Of a stretch of 20,316 nt of DNA, positions 1,558 through 20,316 are shown piece after piece. The position numbers and the translations under genes are program-made. Every line of letters begins with the position of its first letter. Positions within the stretch are counted from its first letter, which is position 1. This DNA is from a virus: IMG/VR virus record IMGVR_UViG_3300043411_000934, positions 1 to 20,316 of that record; one strand, written 5' to 3'. The notes under the pieces are model-generated. The model did not search any database. It was not told the origin of the DNA and saw only the letters and a list, made by a program, of their open reading frames with translations.

Positions 1558-2712
1558 GTGGCCAACACCCTCACCTCCCTGATCCCCGAGCTGTACAGCA
1601 ACCTCGACGTCGTCAGCCGCGAGCTGGTCGGCATGATCCCCGCCGTCACGCTCGACCCCGTGGCCAGCCGCGCCGCGCTGAACGCCACCGTGCGGACCTT
1701 CTCGGCGCCCGCCGCCACCGCCAGCGACATCACCCCCGGTGTGGCCGCGCCTGACACGGGCGACCAAACCATCGGCAACGGCACGCTGTCGATCACCAAG
1801 GCCCGCAAGGTGCCCATTCGCTGGAACGGTGAAGAAACGCTGGCTGTCGGCGGCGCCGGCTTCGGTGCATCGCAGATCCGCGCCGCGCAGATCCAGCAGG
1901 CTTTCCGCACGCTGGTCAACGAGATGGAAGCGGACCTCTGCGCCCTGCACGTCAACGCCAGCCGCGCCTACGGCACCGCCGGCACCACGCCGTTCGGCAC
2001 CGCTGGCGACTACACCGACGCCTCGAACGCTCGCAAGATCCTGGTCGACAACGGCGCGGGCGAGTCCGATCTGCACCTGGTGATGAACACCGCGGCCGGC
2101 GCCAACATCCGCGGCAAGCAGTCGCGCGTCGACGAGGCCGGCACGACGGCGCTCCTGCGCCAGGGTGTCCTGCTCGACACCAGCGGCATGATGCTGCGCG
2201 AGTCGGCGCAGATCGTGACCTTCACCAAGGGCACGGGCGCCAGCGCCACCACCAACACGGCGGGCTACGCTGTCGGCGCCACGGTCATCACCCTGGCTGC
2301 GGCAGGCACCGGCACGATCCTGGCCGGCGACGTCATCACCTTTGCGGGCGACACCAACAAGTATGTCGTCGCCTCGGGTGACGCCAGCACTGCAGACGCC
2401 GGCACCATCACGCTGGCCGCCCCGGGCCTGCGCCAGGCCATCGCGGCTTCGGCCACCGCCATCACGCTGATCGCCACCTCGGCGCGCAATATGGCATTCC
2501 GCCGCAGCGCCATCGTGCTGGCCACCCGCCTGCCGGCTCTGCCGGACGGCGGCGACGCGGCCATCGACCGCGCCGTGGTCACCGACCCGCGCTCGGGGGT
2601 CTCGTTCGAGATCAGCATGTACGCGCAGTACCGCCAGATGTACTACGAGGTAGCGGCCTGCTGGGGTGTGAAGGCCGTCAAGCCCGAGCACATGGCCCTC
2701 CTGTTGGGCTGA
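1558..2712 (+). CDS. Major capsid (coat) protein, P22 gp5-like
   Basis: A 384-residue protein starting with GTG after AGGAG at 1547-1551. The N-terminus MANTLTSLIPELYSNLDVVS, the segment RELVGMIPAVTLDP, and later SITKARKVPIRWNGEE, QQAFRTLVNEMEADLCAL, ASRAYGTAGTTPFGTAG and LHLVMNTAAGANIRGK are characteristic of the P22 coat protein 5 family, which has the HK97 fold. Residues about 221-310 are a Thr/Ala/Gly-rich, beta-like insertion including GDVITFAGDTNKYVV, in the position of the P22 insertion domain. The C-terminus returns to a core-like sequence (GVSFEISMYAQYRQMYYEVAACWGVKAVKPEHMALLLG). It forms the icosahedral shell. The gene lies between the scaffold and small head/tail genes, as expected. 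Confidence 0.88.
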   Translation: MANTLTSLIPELYSNLDVVSRELVGMIPAVTLDPVASRAALNATVRTFSAPAATASDITPGVAAPDTGDQTIGNGTLSITKARKVPIRWNGEETLAVGGAGFGASQIRAAQIQQAFRTLVNEMEADLCALHVNASRAYGTAGTTPFGTAGDYTDASNARKILVDNGAGESDLHLVMNTAAGANIRGKQSRVDEAGTTALLRQGVLLDTSGMMLRESAQIVTFTKGTGASATTNTAGYAVGATVITLAAAGTGTILAGDVITFAGDTNKYVVASGDASTADAGTITLAAPGLRQAIAASATAITLIATSARNMAFRRSAIVLATRLPALPDGGDAAIDRAVVTDPRSGVSFEISMYAQYRQMYYEVAACWGVKAVKPEHMALLLG

Positions 2713-8583: not shown

Positions 8584-10089
8584 GTGGGCTTCGCGCGCAT
8601 TCTCAGCGGCGGCACAAACGGGCGATACTCCATCGAGATCGACTATGGCGAGGCCACGCGCCAGGGTCTCCTGACCTCGATCACGGCGGTCATCGCCAGT
8701 ATCGACAGCGCCATCGCATCGGTCTCTGTACTTATTTTGGAGGGTGAGGTGAAGGAGGCCGCGGCCATCGCCGCGGTGAATGCCGCGCGGGATGCCCTGA
8801 TCGCCGCCACGCTGCCGGGGCTCCCCGCAGGGAGCCCGAAGCCAGACACCGCTGGATTCCGCTTTGCAGTGAAGAGGCTCACCGACCTGAAGGCGATTCA
8901 CGAGCCGCTGCGCATCCGCAAGGAGTCCTTGCGGCACCAGCGCGCGATTGCGGTCAACCGCGCCGCGGCATGGTCAGCATTCACAGCCGTCGAGACGCGC
9001 AACGCCTGGTGCACAGACTACACCGACGACGCGGCGCCGGGGTCATATGCGGCCACCGTCGAGATCCCGGGCGATTCGAGCCTGATCCTGCTCGCGCCGG
9101 GCTGCAGGACATGGTCGGAGGGCGACGGCATCCTGACAGCCCGCGAGATCCTGTCGCCAGAGCAGGCCTACCTGAATGCGGCCATCCTGCCCGGGTGGCA
9201 GAAGTTCAAGCCCACATACCGCTGGGGCACGTGCACGGGCATCAACTATGACGCGAACACCATGGACGTGTCTTTGTTCGCGCAGTCATCAACCGCGCAA
9301 GGTTTGAGCGTCAACCAGGCCAGCGCCCTGACCTCCGTCCCCGTGGTCTACATGACATGCAACGCCCTGGCGTTCGAGATCGACGACCGCGTGGTGGTGC
9401 AGTTCGTCGGCCAGGATTGGGCCAATCCGCGGGTGATCGGCTTCCTGGACAACCCGAAGCGATGCAACGCGTGGCAGCTGTTCCAGAGCGACTACATCCA
9501 GGACACCATTCTCGACGACGACTCCGCGGACTTCTCGCGCCTCACCTATCTTGAGTACAAGTCCTACTTCGCCGACATGGATCAGTGGCTGCTCTGGGAA
9601 ACCGAGGCGGCAAGCGGGACGCTACTGCTGCGCGTCAGGCAGGCCGGCGGCGCATGGAGCGAATACACGGTCTCCCCAATCGCCGGGGGCTGGCTGGGGA
9701 TCAACGTCACGCCGGGGCTCTATGGATCGAACAACTCATTCAACTTCGTGCGGGAACTTACCGGCGCGCAGCGCATGATCGTCTCGGTCCAGATGACGAT
9801 CAACTCATCGAGCCCCATCGGCACCTACCCGACGACGAGTTACCCGCAAACATCGGATGCTGTCTTTGAGTTCCTGGCCACCAAGCTGGACGGCGGCGTC
9901 ATCTACAACGCTGCCTTCCGGATCAAGAACAACGGCACGGCCAACGAGTTCAAGCACTACCACCCCGTGCCGCCGGATGAGCCGGGCTCCTACACGCAGC
10001 AGATCAACGTGCACCCCGGGTCTGAGTCGCTCACCGACGTTGGCCTGCCCTCCATGCTCGACTACACGCTATACGCGGATACCCTCTGA
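8584..10089 (+). CDS. Large tail-tip / baseplate-like protein
   Basis: A 501-residue protein with a GTG start at 8584, preceded by a strong GAGGAGG. It starts GFARILSGGTNGRYSIEIDY. Residues about 30-140 are helical and Ala-rich, interrupted by a Pro/Gly linker (LPGLPAGSPKPD). The central region about 215-295 (RWGTCTGINYDANTMDVSLF, VVYMTCNALAFEIDDRVVVQ, FVGQDWANPRVIGFLDNPKR) looks like an OB or spike-type beta domain. The last 200 residues are beta-rich with many Ser/Thr/Tyr/Trp, as in receptor-binding or fibre regions. It follows the LamG protein and is likely part of the tail tip. No enzymatic motif is visible. The gene ends in TGATG with the next start. Confidence 0.65.
   Translation: MGFARILSGGTNGRYSIEIDYGEATRQGLLTSITAVIASIDSAIASVSVLILEGEVKEAAAIAAVNAARDALIAATLPGLPAGSPKPDTAGFRFAVKRLTDLKAIHEPLRIRKESLRHQRAIAVNRAAAWSAFTAVETRNAWCTDYTDDAAPGSYAATVEIPGDSSLILLAPGCRTWSEGDGILTAREILSPEQAYLNAAILPGWQKFKPTYRWGTCTGINYDANTMDVSLFAQSSTAQGLSVNQASALTSVPVVYMTCNALAFEIDDRVVVQFVGQDWANPRVIGFLDNPKRCNAWQLFQSDYIQDTILDDDSADFSRLTYLEYKSYFADMDQWLLWETEAASGTLLLRVRQAGGAWSEYTVSPIAGGWLGINVTPGLYGSNNSFNFVRELTGAQRMIVSVQMTINSSSPIGTYPTTSYPQTSDAVFEFLATKLDGGVIYNAAFRIKNNGTANEFKHYHPVPPDEPGSYTQQINVHPGSESLTDVGLPSMLDYTLYADTL
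8818..8837 (+). repeat. Strong GC hairpin inside coding sequence
   Basis: GGGCTCCC (8818-8825) and GGGAGCCC (8830-8837) are perfect 8-base inverted arms with a CGCA loop. They encode the Pro/Gly linker of the tail-tip protein. No T-run follows, so this is not a standard terminator. Confidence 0.6.
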
Positions 10090-10529
10090 TGTCGCTCTTC
10101 GTCAAATTCGACGGCCTCAGCGCGGCCACCGGCACGCTCCAGCGCCTGCCCGCATCGCTGGAGAAGACGACCATCCTGCGCATGTCCCAGGTGGCCTACG
10201 ACGAGGCCCAGCGCGGCGCCGGCCGGCACAACAGGACAGGCGCCCTTTTCCAGTCGCTCTTCAATCGCGCCATCCCCAAGGGTCGCGAGATCGGGCACGA
10301 TGGCCAGCGCGCGCCGCACGCCGTCTTTGTGCAGCTTGGCACCAGGCCGCACGTCATCCTGCCCAACAAGAAGAAGGCCCTGCGCTGGGCCACGGGCGGT
10401 AAGTTCTTCTTCGCCGGCAAGGTCAACCACCCGGGCTACCGCGGCGACGCCTACCTGATCAACGCTGCCACGCTGGCGGTGCGCGAGTTCTCCAACATCG
10501 TCACAGCAGCCCTGAAGGAGCAGACCTAA
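10089..10529 (+). CDS. HK97 gp10-like neck / head-tail connector protein
   Basis: 146 residues starting at ATG 10089 within TGATG. The sequence SLFVKFDGLSAATGTLQRLP, the helix SLEKTTILRMSQVAYDEAQR, RTGALFQSLFNRAIPKG, HAVFVQLGTRPHVILPNKKK and a basic GGKFFFAGKVNHPGYRGDAY segment have the order and spacing of the HK97-gp10-like family. That order is an N-terminal strand, a long helix, RTGAL-type motif, then a VQLGTRPH-type turn and an HPG(Y/T)-type motif. These proteins sit at the head-tail joint or complete the tail. Here the gene lies after the tail-tip genes rather than between coat and tail tube. Confidence 0.72.
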   Translation: MSLFVKFDGLSAATGTLQRLPASLEKTTILRMSQVAYDEAQRGAGRHNRTGALFQSLFNRAIPKGREIGHDGQRAPHAVFVQLGTRPHVILPNKKKALRWATGGKFFFAGKVNHPGYRGDAYLINAATLAVREFSNIVTAALKEQT

Positions 10530-10867
10530 TGGCACTCATCTACGCCTACCCCGACGCCTACCTGGCCAAGTTCTGCACCGAGGAGCGCGAGGCCCGCGCC
10601 ATCGCCGATGTCGAGCTGCGCGCCGAGACGGCCGGCTACACCTTCAGCGCCGCATGGCTGGAGCGCCTGGTCATCTACCAGACCTACATCCTGGCGTGCC
10701 TGGAGAACCAGGCCGACGCGGACGACCTGTTCACAGCCAAGCTGAAGAGCTACCGATCGCAGTTCGACGTGCTGCTTCCCCAGGCCATCCAGGCAGCAGC
10801 CGCGGCGGCCGAGACTGTGGGCGGCGCCGGCTTCGGCCTCTTCTCGATCCCGCTGGAGCGCGCGTGA
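10529..10867 (+). CDS. Possible head-tail adaptor, unknown small helical protein
   Basis: 112 residues, ATG at 10529 in a TAATG overlap with the gp10-like gene. It is mostly helical: TEEREARAIADVELRAETAG, AAWLERLVIYQTYILACLEN, DDLFTAKLKSYRSQFDVLLP, and an Ala-rich helix. Size, helical character and the pairing with gp10-like and terminator-like genes suggest a gp6-type adaptor between portal and neck. No diagnostic motif is recognised, so this is inference from neighbours. It ends in TGATG with the following gene. Confidence 0.6.
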   Translation: MALIYAYPDAYLAKFCTEEREARAIADVELRAETAGYTFSAAWLERLVIYQTYILACLENQADADDLFTAKLKSYRSQFDVLLPQAIQAAAAAAETVGGAGFGLFSIPLERA

Positions 10868-11244
10868 TGATGGCCACCCTTGAGGCCGTGCGCGACGCGC
10901 TGGCGCTGATCCCCGGCGTGGCGTCGTGCAAGGTCGGCCTGGAGGCGAACATCGGGCCGGGCGACTATCCGCTGGTGCGCCTGGTGCCCGCCCGCATCAT
11001 CGCGGGCCGGCCGTACCACGCCCGCGAGTGCGAGACGCTGATCTACTTCGGCGCGCCCATCGCAAACAGCGAGGGCATGGAGTCGGTCTACACCAGCCTC
11101 TTCGAGCTGGAGACCGAGATCCTGGCCGTCCTGAAGGCGCAGGGCGCGCGCTACCGCGAGACGATCACCGACGAGGACCGGCTCGACGCCTACAAGCTCA
11201 TGGCGATCCGCGCGGACATCGTGGGTGTGAACGCGGCGCCGTGA
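10867..11244 (+). CDS. Probable tail terminator / tail completion protein
   Basis: 125 residues from the ATG at 10867; a second ATG follows at once, so either of two adjacent starts is possible. MMATLEAVRDALALIPGVAS then CKVGLEANIGPGDYPLVRLV, PARIIAGRPYHARECETLIY and SVYTSLFELETEILAVLKAQ. This shows helix, strands, then long helix, the alternation seen in small alpha/beta tail terminators of siphophages, which cap the tube before joining the head. It follows gp10-like and adaptor-like genes, completing a neck-like set. Assignment is by context and secondary-structure impression. Confidence 0.6.
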   Translation: MMATLEAVRDALALIPGVASCKVGLEANIGPGDYPLVRLVPARIIAGRPYHARECETLIYFGAPIANSEGMESVYTSLFELETEILAVLKAQGARYRETITDEDRLDAYKLMAIRADIVGVNAAP

Positions 11245-11639
11245 AGACCCGCTGGCTGGACCGCCGCATTGCGCTGCCGGGGCCTTGCCTGGCGCTTTGC
11301 CTGAGCGAGCCCGAGTTCAAGGCGGCGGCCAAGCACCTGCGCGTGGATGAGCCTGGTGCGTGGATCAAGACCGCGCACTCACACGCGACGACGCACTTCT
11401 TCCGTCTGCCGGGCAAGCCACCTGCATCCGTTGTGTCGCTGGCCGACTGGCAGGACCGCGAGCCGGTGGAAGTTGCCGGGCTGCTGATCCATGAAGCCGT
11501 GCACATCTGGCAGCGCTACGCCGAGGACATGGGCGAAGACCGCCCCGGCGATGAGCAGGAGGCCTACGCCGTCCAGGCCATCGCTCAGGAGCTTCTGGCC
11601 GAGTTCGCTCGGCGCATGGAGCCCGCGGCACCCACTTAA
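11241..11639 (+). CDS. HEXXH metallopeptidase-like phage protein
   Basis: 132 residues from GTG 11241, overlapping the previous stop as GTGA. Longer upstream frame is shadow of the previous gene. The motif LIHEAVHIWQRYAEDMGED lies at residues 82-100 (H84, E85, H88) and is followed by RPGDEQEAYAVQAIAQELLA, offering E105 or E107 as a third ligand. This is a gluzincin-like arrangement: two zinc-binding His, catalytic Glu, downstream Glu. The N-terminal part has a SEPEFKAAAKHLRVDEPG helix and short strands. It could be a structural-protein protease, a cell-wall-related activity or an inactive fold. Neither a signal peptide nor a fused domain is seen. No substrate can be named. Confidence 0.65.
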   Translation: MKTRWLDRRIALPGPCLALCLSEPEFKAAAKHLRVDEPGAWIKTAHSHATTHFFRLPGKPPASVVSLADWQDREPVEVAGLLIHEAVHIWQRYAEDMGEDRPGDEQEAYAVQAIAQELLAEFARRMEPAAPT

Positions 11640-11646
11640 GCGGGAC

Positions 11647-11681
11647 GCGCCGGCCGCCTGTCCAGGCGCAGAATCCGGCGC
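11647..11681 (+). repeat. Nested inverted repeats before the small signal-anchor gene
   Basis: Outer arms GCGCCGG (11647-11653) and CCGGCGC (11675-11681) enclose an inner hairpin CGCCTG (11655-11660) with CAGGCG (11663-11668). They occupy most of the 43-base gap after the metallopeptidase-like gene and reach to one base before the next ATG. Folded RNA would cover the region where a ribosome binding site should be. No T-run, so not a clear terminator. Confidence 0.45.
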
Positions 11682-11682
11682 C

Positions 11683-12009
11683 ATGAAGACCTTGGTAATC
11701 GTGGCGGTCATCGCCTTCGCGGGGCTCTTGTGGCTTGGCTCTGGCGATTCGAACAGGACAGCCAGCGGATGCCCTGGCGTCGATCAAAACGTGATCTGGC
11801 TGCCGGCCGACCGCCAAGGCGACCGCGCCGTGCTACTGAACGCCGCCGACGTGCTGAACAACCGCATGGGCGCCTGCGTCATCGGGGGCGGATGGGGCCA
11901 GCAGACCGGCATGTACTTCCTGAGCGTCCAAGAGCCAGGGAAGCCGCCTGAGAATCGACGCTACACCCTGGATGCCCTGGAAAAGCTCGCCAAGCTCGGC
12001 GAGCGCTGA
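11683..12009 (+). CDS. Small signal-anchor / exported protein, unknown
   Basis: 108 residues from the ATG at 11683. The N-terminus MKTLVIVAVIAFAGLLWLGS is a short basic start plus about 15 hydrophobic residues, a signal peptide or membrane anchor. The rest is soluble, with two Cys (GCPGVDQNVIWLPADRQGDR; MGACVIGGGWGQQ) that could pair in the periplasm. No clear lipobox is seen. It is the last gene of the structural operon and ends exactly at the convergent F-like gene. A role in lysis, superinfection exclusion or envelope contact is possible, but nothing in the sequence decides it. No good ribosome binding site; the preceding inverted repeats may limit its expression. Confidence 0.6.
   Translation: MKTLVIVAVIAFAGLLWLGSGDSNRTASGCPGVDQNVIWLPADRQGDRAVLLNAADVLNNRMGACVIGGGWGQQTGMYFLSVQEPGKPPENRRYTLDALEKLAKLGER
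11981..12004 (-). terminator. Candidate intrinsic terminator for the minus-strand packaging operon
   Basis: Read on the minus strand, GCTCGCC (12004-11998) and GGCGAGC (11991-11985) form a perfect 7-base GC stem with a 6-base loop, followed by TTTT (11984-11981). It lies just past the stop of the F-like gene and within the 3' end of the opposing gene. The T-run is short, so efficiency is uncertain. On the plus strand no U-tract follows. Confidence 0.5.
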
Positions 12010-13116
12010 TCACCGACGCCCGGCCGTCTCGCCCAGCGTCTCCACCCGATAGAGCGGATCGCGGCCGGCGTTCACCACCGCCTCGGGCGTCACGCCGCGC
12101 AGCACCGCATCGGCCTTGCCCAAGCTGCCCATGACGCGGCCGGCCACCGACGGGTCAAGCCGGCGCAGAAAGTAGGCGTCGCCGCCCGGGTCGCGCTCGC
12201 GGGCCTTCTTGCCGGTCAGGTCCAGCCGCGGCGAGTTCACGCACATGCAGTGGGGATGGAAGGGCGGGCGCGGCGCCCTCGCCTTCGGGTAGACGCCGGG
12301 GCCCAGGCCGTACAGGTCGCGGCCGGCGAACAGAGAGCAGATGCACGGCGCCCCACGGCCAGGCGCGCGCCGCACCTGCACGAACTCGATGTCGGCGTCG
12401 TCCATCAGGATCTGCGCCTCGCGCTCGGCATAGGCCTTGTGCAGCTCGGTGCGGGCGATGCGCGCCGCGAAGTAGCGCATGCGCTCAAAGAAGGCCACTT
12501 CCAGGCGCTTCTCCAGCAGCTTGCTCCCTGCCCCAGCCTCCAGCGCTTCCAGGGCGTCCAGCGCCTGCTGATAGGCCGCGCGCAGGGCTGGCGTCGACAG
12601 GTTGTCCACCTGCAGGCCGGCGAAGGCCCGCCGCATGCCGGCCAGCACCGCGTCGTCGTTCAGCAGGGCCTCGCGCAGGTACTTTGGGAGCCGTGGATTG
12701 CGCGGGCTGAACTGCAGCGGCTCGGCGTCCGGCGGCCTGAAGGTGTAGCCCTCGTACAGCTCCAGCGCCAGGCCGCGGGCGTCCTGGAAGCCTTGGGTGT
12801 GACGCTGCACCACGCCCTGCACCACCTCGCCCGCGACCAACGCCTCGGCGTACAGCCGCCTCGACAGCTGCACGGCTCCGACCTCCAGCTGCATGACCGC
12901 GGCCGGGCCCACGGCCTCGCCCAGGATGCCCGACAGCGCCGTCGACATGGTCTGCGCCATCTCGCCGCGGAAGCCGTCCATGACCGCCTGCACGGCGTCG
13001 CGCGGCACCACGCCGGCCTCGATCTGGTCGATGATCTCGCGGAAGGCCTCGCGCAGCGCCTCGTCGAGGCCGGCGACGGTGGCGGCCAGCAGGGCGCGTT
13101 CTTGTTCGGGGGTCAC
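12010..13116 (-). CDS. Mu gpF-like head morphogenesis (minor head) protein
   Basis: 368 residues from GTG at 13116, with AGGAG in the end of the preceding gene. The N-terminal 200 residues are helical (TPEQERALLAATVAGLDEAL, a long Ala-rich region). Residues about 215-310 hold the family core: ARIARTELHKAYAEREAQIL, DADIEFVQVRRAPGRGAPCI, CSLFAGRDLYGLGPGVYPKA and PPFHPHCMCVNSPRLDL. The CIC and HPHCMC cysteine/histidine cluster is the hallmark of the Mu-F-like C-terminal domain and probably binds metal. These proteins assist procapsid assembly near the portal. It is the last gene of the minus operon and its stop abuts the convergent gene with no spacer. Unusually, the portal is not next to it. 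Confidence 0.88.
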   Translation of the reverse strand: MTPEQERALLAATVAGLDEALREAFREIIDQIEAGVVPRDAVQAVMDGFRGEMAQTMSTALSGILGEAVGPAAVMQLEVGAVQLSRRLYAEALVAGEVVQGVVQRHTQGFQDARGLALELYEGYTFRPPDAEPLQFSPRNPRLPKYLREALLNDDAVLAGMRRAFAGLQVDNLSTPALRAAYQQALDALEALEAGAGSKLLEKRLEVAFFERMRYFAARIARTELHKAYAEREAQILMDDADIEFVQVRRAPGRGAPCICSLFAGRDLYGLGPGVYPKARAPRPPFHPHCMCVNSPRLDLTGKKARERDPGGDAYFLRRLDPSVAGRVMGSLGKADAVLRGVTPEAVVNAGRDPLYRVETLGETAGRR

Positions 13117-17968: not shown

Positions 17969-18761
17969 CTTCTTCCTCGCGTTGTTGGGCCTCAGCGATC
18001 AGGGCGCCGAAGGCGTTGGCGTTGGTCTGCGTCTTGTCGGCCTGCTGGCCTTGAGTCCGCGTCATCTGGCGATTCGTCGCCCACTCCGTGCGCAGCTTCT
18101 CGGCGTCACGCAGCATCAGGTTGACCGGGTGCATGGCCGACACGTACAGGCCGTTCTGGTGCCGGACGTAGAAGGCCGCGACTGCTGGCGCTTCGTCTGC
18201 AGGGATGCGTCCGACGAATTGCGCTAGCTGGCCGTTGACCCTGGCGTTCCTGACAGGCTCCGCGCCGTAGCGGCCTTGGTAGGCAAAGGCATAGGCTCCC
18301 CACGTTTCAGAGCTAACCGGCGCGGCAGTCGAGCGCTTTGCGCGAGGCTTGCCCGCAATTTGTGATGCCTCTGCCTCTGTCTCTGGGTCTGCCTCTGTCC
18401 TCTGTAATGCCTCTGCCTCTGCCTCTGTCTCTGGTACAGCACCGCGCAAGCACTCTGCTAGCACTCCGCTAGCGGCTTGCACCGGCTCAAAGAAATGCTT
18501 TTCCAGCAGTGGGCGAAGTGCTACAGAGATTTCTTTCTCTGTACTGCGAAGGCGGAACGCCAAATCATCCGGGTCTGCATTGATGACGCCATCAACCGAT
18601 TCACTGGCGAGAAGCCAGAGCATGGGGGCCAAAGCCCTGCTAGCGACCGGAAGCCGCTGGAAATCCTTGTTGTCCAGCAAACCGCGATGCAGACGAATCC
18701 ACGGCGGGTTACGGTCTTTGTAGTGCTGGAAATCGCGCCAGTTGCGCGGCACGATCTTCAT
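17946..18761 (-). CDS. O-like phage replication initiation protein
   Basis: 271 residues from ATG 18761 (ATGA overlap with the HNH gene). I choose this over an upstream in-frame codon because it fits the coupled overlap and starts MKIVPRNWRDFQHYKDRNPP, WIRLHRGLLDNKDFQRLPVA. The N-terminal 110 residues (WIRLHRGLLDNKDF, RALAPMLWLLASESVDGVIN, DDLAFRLRSTEKEISVALRP) form a winged-helix domain typical of O-like proteins that bind the origin. A low-complexity Glu/Ala/Thr linker (PETEAEAEALQRTEADPETE) follows, encoded by DNA repeats. The C-terminal part (about 165-245, ETWGAYAFAYQGRYGAEPVR, HPVNLMLRDAEKLRTEW) is probably the partner-contact region. It likely opens the origin and recruits helicase. 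Confidence 0.8.
   Translation of the reverse strand: MKIVPRNWRDFQHYKDRNPPWIRLHRGLLDNKDFQRLPVASRALAPMLWLLASESVDGVINADPDDLAFRLRSTEKEISVALRPLLEKHFFEPVQAASGVLAECLRGAVPETEAEAEALQRTEADPETEAEASQIAGKPRAKRSTAAPVSSETWGAYAFAYQGRYGAEPVRNARVNGQLAQFVGRIPADEAPAVAAFYVRHQNGLYVSAMHPVNLMLRDAEKLRTEWATNRQMTRTQGQQADKTQTNANAFGALIAEAQQREEEDGKLKAA
18365..18434 (-). repeat. Hexamer-type repeats inside the replication gene (candidate origin iterons)
   Basis: CTCTG occurs nine times in 70 bases on the plus strand, mostly as GCCTCT(G) units. A block ATGC followed by CTCTGC/CTCTGT units and ending CTCTGG spans 18365-18386; it recurs at 18407-18434 with one extra 6-base unit. They encode the Glu/Ala/Thr linker of the O-like protein. 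Repeats inside an O-type gene are where lambdoid origins lie. An alternative is simple slippage in a linker codon tract. Confidence 0.6.
18450..18471 (-). repeat. Tandem 11-base repeat next to the iteron block
   Basis: GCACTCTGCTA (18450-18460) is followed directly by GCACTCCGCTA (18461-18471), differing in one base. Both contain the ACTC(T/C)GCTA core and adjoin the hexamer block in the replication gene, so they may be part of the same origin array. Confidence 0.55.
18522..18543. repeat. Perfect inverted repeat in the replication gene
   Basis: TACAGAGA (18522-18529) and TCTCTGTA (18536-18543) are perfect 8-base arms around a 6-base AT-rich spacer, TTTCTT. CTCTGTA also occurs once in the nearby direct-repeat block (18400-18406), so the same protein could recognise both. 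Confidence 0.5.
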
Positions 18762-19147
18762 GCTTGTGCCCCTCTTGAGAACGCAGCAGTCGCCGCCTTG
18801 TCTTCCTTTTGCTTGCGTCGGTTGCACGTTTCGCACAGCGTCTGCAGGTTGCTTGGCACGTTCAACCCGCCAGCAGGCCGCGTGACGATGTGGTCAACGA
18901 TCAAAGCGTCGGAACTTCCTGCGCCTGTCTTGGTGTCGGTCCCGAGCGTGTATCGACCGGAATAGTCAGCAGGCACGTTCACTGCCTTCGCGTCGCACCG
19001 CCGGCACTTGAAACCATCGCGGCGGAACACTTCTCGCCGCAAGGCGGCATGGCACGGGATATTGAACTTGAGCGCACGCACGCTCGATGTGACGGGCCAC
19101 GCGCGGCCATCCATGTCAGTCCAAATGCGTTCGGCTTTGGTTCTCAC
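18758..19147 (-). CDS. HNH endonuclease
   Basis: I take GTG 19147 as start (129 residues): it overlaps the upstream stop as GTGA and has AGGTGG upstream. A TTG at 19180 in the same frame would give 140 residues but overlap the previous gene by 37 bases. The protein has a zinc-site CRRC, the DHIV of VDHIVTRPAGG, LNVPSNLQTLCETCNRRKQK with the catalytic Asn and a second C-x2-C, the standard HNH fold order. The N-terminal half (RIWTDMDGRAWPVTSS, FNIPCHAALRREVFRRDGFK) is typical of small phage HNH nucleases. It may nick or cut DNA during replication or packaging. It is located before the replication gene, away from the terminase. Confidence 0.85.
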   Translation of the reverse strand: MRTKAERIWTDMDGRAWPVTSSVRALKFNIPCHAALRREVFRRDGFKCRRCDAKAVNVPADYSGRYTLGTDTKTGAGSSDALIVDHIVTRPAGGLNVPSNLQTLCETCNRRKQKEDKAATAAFSRGAQA

Positions 19148-19362
19148 GCAGTCCACCTCGTTGGCTGAACAACGCGCCAAGTCACCAAGCCGTCGCGCGT
19201 CTTGCCCTTCTTGACTTGCTCGTCGGCGCGCAGCGATTCCTCAATGCGCTTCCAGGGGCACACGCTGACGCCGAGGGCCAGCATCTGCATGTAGGTGTGT
19301 GGGCGCTGCTTGAGCGCGGCTATCAAAAGCCGGCCCTGCGTTGCGTAGACGTTGCGCTTCAT
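19144..19362 (-). CDS. Small winged-helix-like protein
   Basis: 72 residues from ATG 19362, overlapping the previous stop as ATGA. MKRNVYATQGRLLIAALKQR, PHTYMQMLALGVSVCPWKRI, EESLRADEQVKKGKTRDGLV, then TWRVVQPTRWTA. Helix, helix, helix (CPWKRIEESLRADE) and a strand-turn-strand wing (VKKGKTRDGLVTWRVVQ) suggest a compact winged HTH. Function unknown; one of several such small proteins here. Confidence 0.66.
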   Translation of the reverse strand: MKRNVYATQGRLLIAALKQRPHTYMQMLALGVSVCPWKRIEESLRADEQVKKGKTRDGLVTWRVVQPTRWTA

Positions 19363-19532
19363 GCCTTGTCATTGCTTGCGCACCGTGGCCACGCCATCGG
19401 AAGATTCCCGCGCCACTTGCTGCCAGTGCGCAGACCTTTGCAGCCGCATAGGTATAGGACGCGGGTATCTGATCCGCCGCCGCCTGGGTTGCGCTGGGCG
19501 GTCAGGTCTTTCTGGGACGAGAAGCGGTTCAT
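19359..19532 (-). CDS. Cysteine-containing microprotein (57 residues), possible zinc binder
   Basis: ATG at 19532 and TGA at 19361-19359, both in ATGA overlaps with neighbours. MNRFSSQKDLTAQRNPGGGG, SDTRVLYLCGCKGLRTGSKW, RGNLPMAWPRCASNDKA. The CGC pair and later C could form part of a zinc-ribbon-like site (YLCGCKG with WPRC). It exactly bridges two coupled genes, which argues for a real gene. Function unknown. Confidence 0.62.
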   Translation of the reverse strand: MNRFSSQKDLTAQRNPGGGGSDTRVLYLCGCKGLRTGSKWRGNLPMAWPRCASNDKA

Positions 19533-20316
19533 GCTGCGAACAGGTCTTCGGTCTTCGTTACTGCGCCGGCCAGATTGGCAACAGCCTGCTTGAAGTAGCT
19601 GGCCTTCAGTTCCGCGCCGACAAAGCGCCGGCCCATTTCCAGCGCCACATAGCCCTCAGACCCGATGCCCATGAACGGCGACAGAACGATGTCGTCAGGG
19701 TTCGTCCACAGCATCACGCCACGGCGGATCACGTCGAGCTGCAGCGGGCAGATGTGGCGCTCGTCATCATGCTCACGGGCGCTCATGTACTGCAGGGTGT
19801 CTGACTGGTTTATGTCCATCCACACCGGGCTGGCGACCTTCTGCCAGACCTCGACGGGGAACTCCTGCGCCGTGTGCGTGACGTGCTCCTCGGCTTCGCC
19901 TGGGCAGCGCATCGTGATGAGGTAGTCAGGGATGCCCATGCGGGTCATTTCAGACCGCTCGCGGATGCTCTTGTGCAGCAGGCCCAGCGCCTTGGTGCGC
20001 GTCATTGCGGTAACCGGGTCTTTCCAGATCGTCGCCTTGCTGTGGAAGATGAACCCGTGCCGCTGGAAAGCCCGCAGCAGATCGCCGGGGAAATCCTTCA
20101 GCCCGATGTAGCCGTCGCGCTCCTTGCTGGCCGGCATGTCCATGCAGTGAAAGCTGACGTTCCGGCCGGGCTTCATCACGCGGCGCAGTTCGGCAATGAG
20201 GAAGTCGAAGTGCTCGAAGAACTCGGCATCGTCGCGCACGTTGCCCATGTCGCGCGGGCTGTTGCTGTAGGTGTAGAGGCTAGCGAACGGCGGCGAGAAG
20301 ATCGAATAGCCCACGC
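19529..20316 (-). CDS. DNA methyltransferase, SPPF-type (5' end beyond right edge)
   Basis: The frame is open from the right edge to the TGA at 19531-19529, at least 261 residues. A GTG at 20314 is the only start-like codon near the edge, but sequence there (GYSIFSPPFASLYTYSNSPR) is an internal motif, so the true start probably lies outside. SPPF at residues 8-11 counted from that GTG is the catalytic motif IV in the S/T-PP-F/Y form seen in N4-cytosine methylases such as M.PvuII, rather than the DPPY of most adenine enzymes. The C-terminal LSPFMGIGSEGYVALEMGRR then FVGAELKASYFKQA is motif I (SAM binding), so motif order is IV before I, the beta class. Probable role: protecting phage DNA from host restriction or marking origin/packaging sites. 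Confidence 0.85.
   Translation of the reverse strand, partial: VGYSIFSPPFASLYTYSNSPRDMGNVRDDAEFFEHFDFLIAELRRVMKPGRNVSFHCMDMPASKERDGYIGLKDFPGDLLRAFQRHGFIFHSKATIWKDPVTAMTRTKALGLLHKSIRERSEMTRMGIPDYLITMRCPGEAEEHVTHTAQEFPVEVWQKVASPVWMDINQSDTLQYMSAREHDDERHICPLQLDVIRRGVMLWTNPDDIVLSPFMGIGSEGYVALEMGRRFVGAELKASYFKQAVANLAGAVTKTEDLFAA

Follow-up and report, generated by a model that had tools for sequence, protein, structure and literature searches.

A PHROG_882 gene with an HExxH...E metallopeptidase signature and a roaming, cargo-like distribution among phages

Introduction

Gluzincins of the MA(E) group, such as the thermolysin-like enzymes and the minigluzincins/abylysin, combine an HExxH motif with a Glu further along, on the helix that follows, features which they have in common with the phage protein analyzed here. 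The DNA-protein-crosslink proteases SprT/Spartan and Wss1 (WLM) likewise have a small zincin domain in which a helix carries the HExxH, and the third zinc ligand of SprT/Spartan is a His. Both of these protease groups are described as minigluzincin-like in a passage of PMC4559962. In phages, a jumbo-phage review (PMC7824862) suggests that patchily distributed SprT-like and ArdC-like peptidases cleave proteins of the host, and that maturation may involve another zincin. PMC12363180 refers to a SprT-like cluster in mycobacteriophages, and for gp24 of Acinetobacter phage Loki, encoded in the replication module, the authors of the genome noted “SprT-like and peptidase domains” (PMC5313236).

That one sentence of PMC5313236 was all that the literature surveyed contained on PHROG_882, a catalogued phage family without an assigned function in PHROGs. 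Here, we analyze a member of the family encoded in a 20,316-nucleotide stretch of virus DNA (positions 1 to 20,316 of IMG/VR record IMGVR_UViG_3300043411_000934), referred to below as the window. New for PHROG_882 are an active-site assignment, a predicted fold and a roaming, cargo-like distribution.

Results

The PHROG_882-type metallopeptidase-like gene occupies 11241-11639 on the + strand, from a GTG start at 11241 to a TAA stop at 11637-11639, and its first 4 bases (GTGA, 11241-11244) are shared with the end of the upstream gene. The product of 132 residues contains H84-E85-A86-V87-H88, E105 and E107, as a previous sequence-only reading of this DNA had recorded. Across the family, dN/dS was 0.01-0.21 in 31 of 37 close pairs; four further pairs, from a single very close group, gave 0.29-0.41, and two with dS ~0 gave no ratio. 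The window gene and its nearest relative, L014, are separated by a dN of 0.218 and a dS of 1.12. We conclude that 11241-11639 is a genuine gene under purifying selection. The family proteins are acidic (pI 5.65 for the window protein, median 5.93, above 7.5 in 1 of 77), and no N-terminal or secretion signal was seen in the window protein when inspected by eye. A tblastn search of annotated phages matched 65 records, 56 of them from Acinetobacter phages; among the 60 of the 65 matches listed, 10 bore the name “peptidase”, “putative proteinase” or “metallo-protease”. The family match runs past annotated ORF gp60 in EBPR siphovirus 1 (L008, 6001-6351) and covers two annotated ORFs in Caulobacter phage DMCA (L011, 6001-6129); misannotated starts, or a broken copy in DMCA, may be the reason.

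To describe conservation, 94 relatives were extracted from viral contigs and bacterial genomes (L024, on the same contig as L003, was not extracted). All 94 have HE[A/S]VH followed by E-x-E-A-Y. The His-to-Glu spacing returned by a regular expression was 16 residues in 90 relatives and 17 in L079; in L058, L060 and L062 the expression caught an earlier HEALH, and the true HEAVH spacing is 16 by eye. Alignment A2 comprises the window protein and 72 of the 94 loci, after removal of 14 identical copies, 5 near-copies and three truncated sequences (L097, L101, L102), and is invariant at R8, H84, E85, V87, H88, W90, Q91, E99, E105, E107, A108 and Y109. A deeper set (n=10) joined the window protein with nine proteins at 19-71% identity to it, from Pasteurella (Pm86), Synechococcus, Microcystis, Loki and its relatives, and Vieuvirus phages. 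Only Met1, H84, E85, H88, E105, A108 and Y109 are invariant in all ten.

The relatives had been checked for loss of the second His or the downstream Glu, and both are kept (94/94; 10/10). The gluzincin-like HExxH...E signature proposed earlier is supported, with H84, E85, H88 and E105 the same in 10/10. The earlier reading had left the downstream Glu as either 105 or 107; Glu105 is preferred because it alone is invariant among the distant relatives (10/10), and Glu107, missing from several distant rows of the deeper set, is given up. Phage Loki gp24, for example, has E-L-H-A-Y at the E105 position. The putative zinc-binding and catalytic motif, H84-E85-A-V-H88, is encoded at 11490-11504 (+ strand), and E105, the candidate third zinc ligand within E-x-x-A-Y, at 11553-11555 (+ strand). 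The pattern H-E-x-x-H-(16)-E-x-x-A-Y resembles the E-x-x-x-D arrangement in M48- and thermolysin-type enzymes. Conservation of this extent indicates that the HEAVH motif of the window protein is not due to chance.

The PHROG_882 profile matched residues 41-126 of the window protein (E 6.5e-21), followed by PHROG_1365; among A2 members the two profiles matched 73/73 and 71/73, respectively. NCBIfam gave no match for the window protein. The Pfam SprT-like profile had no match to it at E<=1, and at E<=0.1 it reached 2/73 sequences of A2 (best 0.023). Neither A2 nor the 10-member set has an invariant counterpart of the third SprT His, E105 being invariant instead, and membership in SprT/Spartan was rejected because the His is absent and the third ligand would be a Glu. 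Pfam BSP (PF04450) matched 54/73 A2 members at E<=0.1 (best 2.2e-4), and in the window protein the match covers residues 72-94, the HExxHxxQ helix. At 14.4 bits against a curated cut-off of 23.8, membership in BSP was also rejected. The window protein is a member of PHROG_882 and gluzincin-like by signature, and it is neither SprT, by the third ligand, nor BSP, by score.

An AlphaFold2 model computed on A2 (pLDDT 90.2, pTM 0.85) predicts strands at 16-20, 49-54 and 62-67, a helix at 75-96 with the HExxH in its middle, and a helix at 104-126 with E105 near its beginning. This modeled two-helix layout is that of a small or minimal HExxH...E (gluzincin-type) zincin and would suit a metal site. 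Against a library of viral models there were 20 matches at E<=1e-3, mostly unnamed; two were named SprT-like, and one was a Loki protein of 127 aa, the same length as gp24. Foldseek returned no significant match in the PDB (best E 0.074, an unrelated toxin). With VIA-align the best hits were macro domains (Z 3.8), followed by 1oz9, which we take to be a YbeY, at 2.8 and IrrE (3dti) at 2.4, none of them usable. A PDB profile search with A2 gave only two rows, CIAO1 (E 0.34) and VgrG2b (6h56, E 3.1), and the same search with alignment A1 gave nothing. Since no PDB match was significant, the proposed zincin fold is drawn from the motif, the helix layout and the mostly unnamed viral models.

The window encodes a major head protein of P22-coat type at 1558-2712 (+ strand; phrog_283 E 2.2e-93, PF11651 E 2.3e-8). 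P22 heads assemble in a scaffold-dependent manner without a prohead protease. The earlier observation that no prohead protease lies near the coat gene fits a P22-type, scaffold-dependent head, because such a head needs none. Coat residues ~230-303 (window 2245-2466) also matched the distal tail protein family phrog_1302 (E 0.0013), and this region is possibly a shared inserted surface domain.

The Neck1/tail-completion gene (10089-10529, + strand; phrog_5 E 1.5e-7) lies three genes upstream of the peptidase gene. Between them are a gene at 10529-10867 and a gene for 125 aa at 10867-11244 (+ strand), whose stop overlaps the peptidase start and which flanks the empty site described below; neither matched a functional PHROG. 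The earlier placing of the peptidase gene directly after gp10-like and terminator-like genes is thus borne out in part, by the phrog_5 neck gene upstream, with “terminator-like” as a putative label. Downstream are a small ORF with a hydrophobic, signal-like N-terminus (11680-12009, + strand; best phrog_18623 E 0.019, no Pfam match) and a convergent head morphogenesis gene (12010-13116, - strand; phrog_1657), beyond which are a 69-aa ORF and then TerL. Toward the right end of the window, the - strand encodes an HNH-endonuclease-like protein (18758-19180, CRRC...CETCNRRK) and a DNA-methyltransferase-like protein (19529-20314, SPPF motif), both recognized by eye.

Two relatives have this junction without a peptidase gene. 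L273 and L348 carry three homologous neck-block genes (46-66% identity), a head-morphogenesis homolog (49-54%) convergent with the upstream gene, and a coat 70% identical to that of the window; L306, another part of the L348 record, also has portal, scaffold and tail genes. At the L273 junction, the stop of the upstream gene (3394, - strand) overlaps the stop of the morphogenesis gene (3397, + strand), and at the L348 junction 125 bases separate the two genes. The corresponding 769 bases of the window contain the peptidase gene and the small ORF. The whole record of L348 (G422) had no match to the family profile. Because both are absent from the site in these two relatives, the only empty sites found, the peptidase gene and the small ORF appear to be optional cargo; the ORF at 11680-12009, missing together with the peptidase gene from both sites, probably belongs to the same cargo.

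The Neck1 block itself (window 10089-11244, L273 3394-4516, L348 2081-3182) also differs in its setting. It follows tail genes on the + strand in the window and lies directly beside a same-strand portal gene in L273, and several kilobases separate it from the portal gene in L306. The convergent junction of Neck1 block and morphogenesis gene is kept in the window, L273 and L348, which points to module rearrangement between close phages.

In a census of 43 long records, picked by length from 240 coat loci and searched with the A2 profile, a family member was detected in 1 of 21 records whose coat is related to that of the window, in none of 10 related to L030 by coat (also phrog_283) and in none of 12 HK97-coat records. 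The HK97 set consists mostly of near-identical enterobacterial-type phages and is thus a poor control, whose 0 of 12 carries little weight. In the flanks of the coat loci the counts were 2/80 for the window type, 1/80 for the L030 type (the query's own record) and 0/80 for HK97. Conversely, among records carrying the gene, a phrog_283 coat was found in 23/38 (7 of them weak, E ~1e-12 to 1e-8), an S78 protease in 0/39 (L024 being counted in this search as L003's record) and a ClpP-type protease in 0/38. On these raw frequencies, family-bearing records may lean to protease-free heads. In chromosomes the family is rare: of 349 genomes from a single bacterial order, only the set's center genome had a PHROG_882 match, and a pattern scan of bacterial genome contigs found 11 family loci. 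PHROG_882 may therefore reside mostly on non-integrating phages, with the Acinetobacter Vieuvirus phages as an exception.

The neighbors of the gene vary among phages. Genes within 2.5 kb of the 94 loci were assigned by cluster, with the polymerase, exonuclease and ssDNA-binding labels and two portal clusters named by eye or position; the neighbor tables comprise 62/68 upstream and 53/58 downstream ORFs from our own ORF picks, some of them antisense. A packaging, head or neck gene was within this distance at 58/94 loci and a replication gene at 14/94, one locus falling in both classes; 23/94 were unassigned, among them L015 and L021-L023, where tblastn placed a window-type TerS just downstream. 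By our reading the gene lies between TerS and TerL at 22/94 loci, and in L054 it abuts both. Elsewhere it precedes TerS, follows the portal gene and precedes the scaffold gene (L006), lies between scaffold and coat (L044, L050) or between coat and Neck1 (L086), or has a resolvase (RusA-like or NinG) or a helicase as neighbor. In the two Vieuvirus phages of Acinetobacter that were examined, its position is one gene past a “neck protein”; in one of them it immediately precedes a putative tail terminator. Few of the other window genes tested have homologs next to family relatives, and the core of the viral A2 members is mostly 45-70% identical to that of the window protein though the neighbors change.

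A quick tree had 92 rows, of which 72 carried a slot label. The five coarse slots required 20 changes, where 4 would be the least possible and shuffling gave 36.1 on average; with 132 columns the resolution of the tree is poor, and no more than 1-2 changes per slot are forced by strong branches. Under the label TerS_FAM_TerL (32 rows) are also 10 loci at which only a downstream TerL was found; L018 (TerL at +3 only), L034, L042, L032, L079 and L100 were labeled by the nearest known gene, and no label was given to L027 (both kinds), L057 or L096. The slot therefore seems to be inherited for a while and to change repeatedly.

Discussion

We regard it as fairly probable that the window gene encodes a roaming, optional metallopeptidase of the infected cell that acts in trans. 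On balance, the signature suggests that the window protein would be a protease. Action in trans is most likely because the gene occupies many slots in unrelated phages and is missing from two syntenic relatives, and the product probably targets a protein within the infected cell and is probably dispensable for building the particle. Judging from conservation and the predicted fold, H84, H88 and E105 would hold the zinc, E85 would activate the water, and A108/Y109 would pack the second ligand helix. The cargo of peptidase gene and small ORF lies where the neck block converges on the head-morphogenesis/terminase operon, and the 4-base overlap may couple translation of the peptidase gene to the neck block. 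The enzyme would be free in the cytoplasm in the late phase and would cleave either a protein of the host or one of the phage that is not tied to the particle type. Expression time, and not a physical partner, would decide the place of the gene.

The sequence-only reading had suggested that a prohead or tail-maturation protease, or an activity linked to peptidoglycan, could be encoded. The latter was dropped, as no wall-hydrolase match was found (PHROG, Pfam, NCBIfam) and no N-terminal signal was seen by eye. A prohead, scaffold or tail-maturation protease would contact the assembling particle and cleave a structural protein, and the neck genes around the window gene, the Vieuvirus copies near a “neck protein”, and the packaging, head or neck genes near 58/94 loci could mean a virion-related role there. 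The gene-bearing records, with their phrog_283 coats (23/38) and no S78 (0/39) or ClpP-type (0/38) protease, also speak for such a function. However, L273 and L306/L348 keep the neck, morphogenesis and coat genes without the peptidase gene, which is present in 1/21 related-coat records and also in replication modules, and P22-type heads are not proteolysed. The window protein had no PHROG or Pfam match at E<=1 to known prohead protease families. Because of the two empty sites and the 1/21 related-coat records, maturation no longer leads and now seems quite unlikely. Less likely still is a non-catalytic protein, structural or regulatory, that binds zinc with an inherited zincin core; the small size and the frequent place among head and neck genes would suit it, but Glu85 is invariant in the examined members, and a zinc site that serves structure alone could do without it.

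The preferred reading of an enzyme acting in trans has a narrower form, in which the protease would serve counter-defence or host takeover by destroying a host protein and would be kept by phages of certain hosts. This seems quite possible, given a gene that is patchy, mobile, under purifying selection and absent from close relatives, and the cargo pattern agrees with the suggestion in the review cited above that such peptidases cut host proteins. However, no defence gene or known target is linked to the family, and a gene placed in a late operon would come late for taking over the host. A SprT/Spartan-like protease that strips cross-linked or tightly bound proteins from phage DNA before replication or packaging is doubtful. 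The slot between TerS and TerL (22/94), the resolvase or helicase neighbors elsewhere, the SprT-like names of two of the 20 best viral model hits and the SprT-like link made by the Loki authors in PMC5313236 speak for it. Against it, the family is acidic (median pI 5.9) and its members lack a separate DNA-binding domain. Moreover, the third His of SprT is replaced by Glu, and the Pfam SprT-like matches are few (2/73) and weak. We also consider it unlikely, slightly more so than such DNA clearing, that the PHROG_882 protein is a late protease for packaging, which would clear proteins or a packaging inhibitor from concatemeric DNA for the terminase. It would then be a proteolytic counterpart of the Holliday-junction resolvases, consistent with a gene repeatedly beside resolvases or TerS/TerL, and could move between unrelated packaging systems because its substrate would be on the DNA or in the host and not in the particle.

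The likely active site (H84, E85, H88, E105), the optional presence in this phage type and the roaming between packaging, head, neck and replication slots turn a “hypothetical protein” into a testable enzyme and shift attention from virion maturation to a target in the infected cell. If that target is a phage DNA-bound protein or a defence protein, the family would represent a new late phage strategy.

Among zincins, only the effector domain of VgrG2b (6h56) was reached by profile, with an insignificant match (E 3.1, positions 76-93) ranked below CIAO1, a non-peptidase. Its third-ligand Glu is also at the top of a helix, according to a passage of PMC6899460, but its His-to-Glu gap (H939 to E983) is much longer than that of the window protein. 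BSP proteins are plant and bacterial peptidases, whereas the window protein has no secretion signal by eye. The window family differs from SprT/Spartan and Wss1 (WLM) in its candidate third ligand, a Glu, and in being acidic and without a DNA-binding tail. Acinetobacter phage Loki gp24 is a distant homolog, with 35% identity over 72 aa, HEACH and the E-L-H-A-Y noted above, and its gene sits in a replication module, flanked by the beta-subunit gene and by a short ORF that precedes the helicase.
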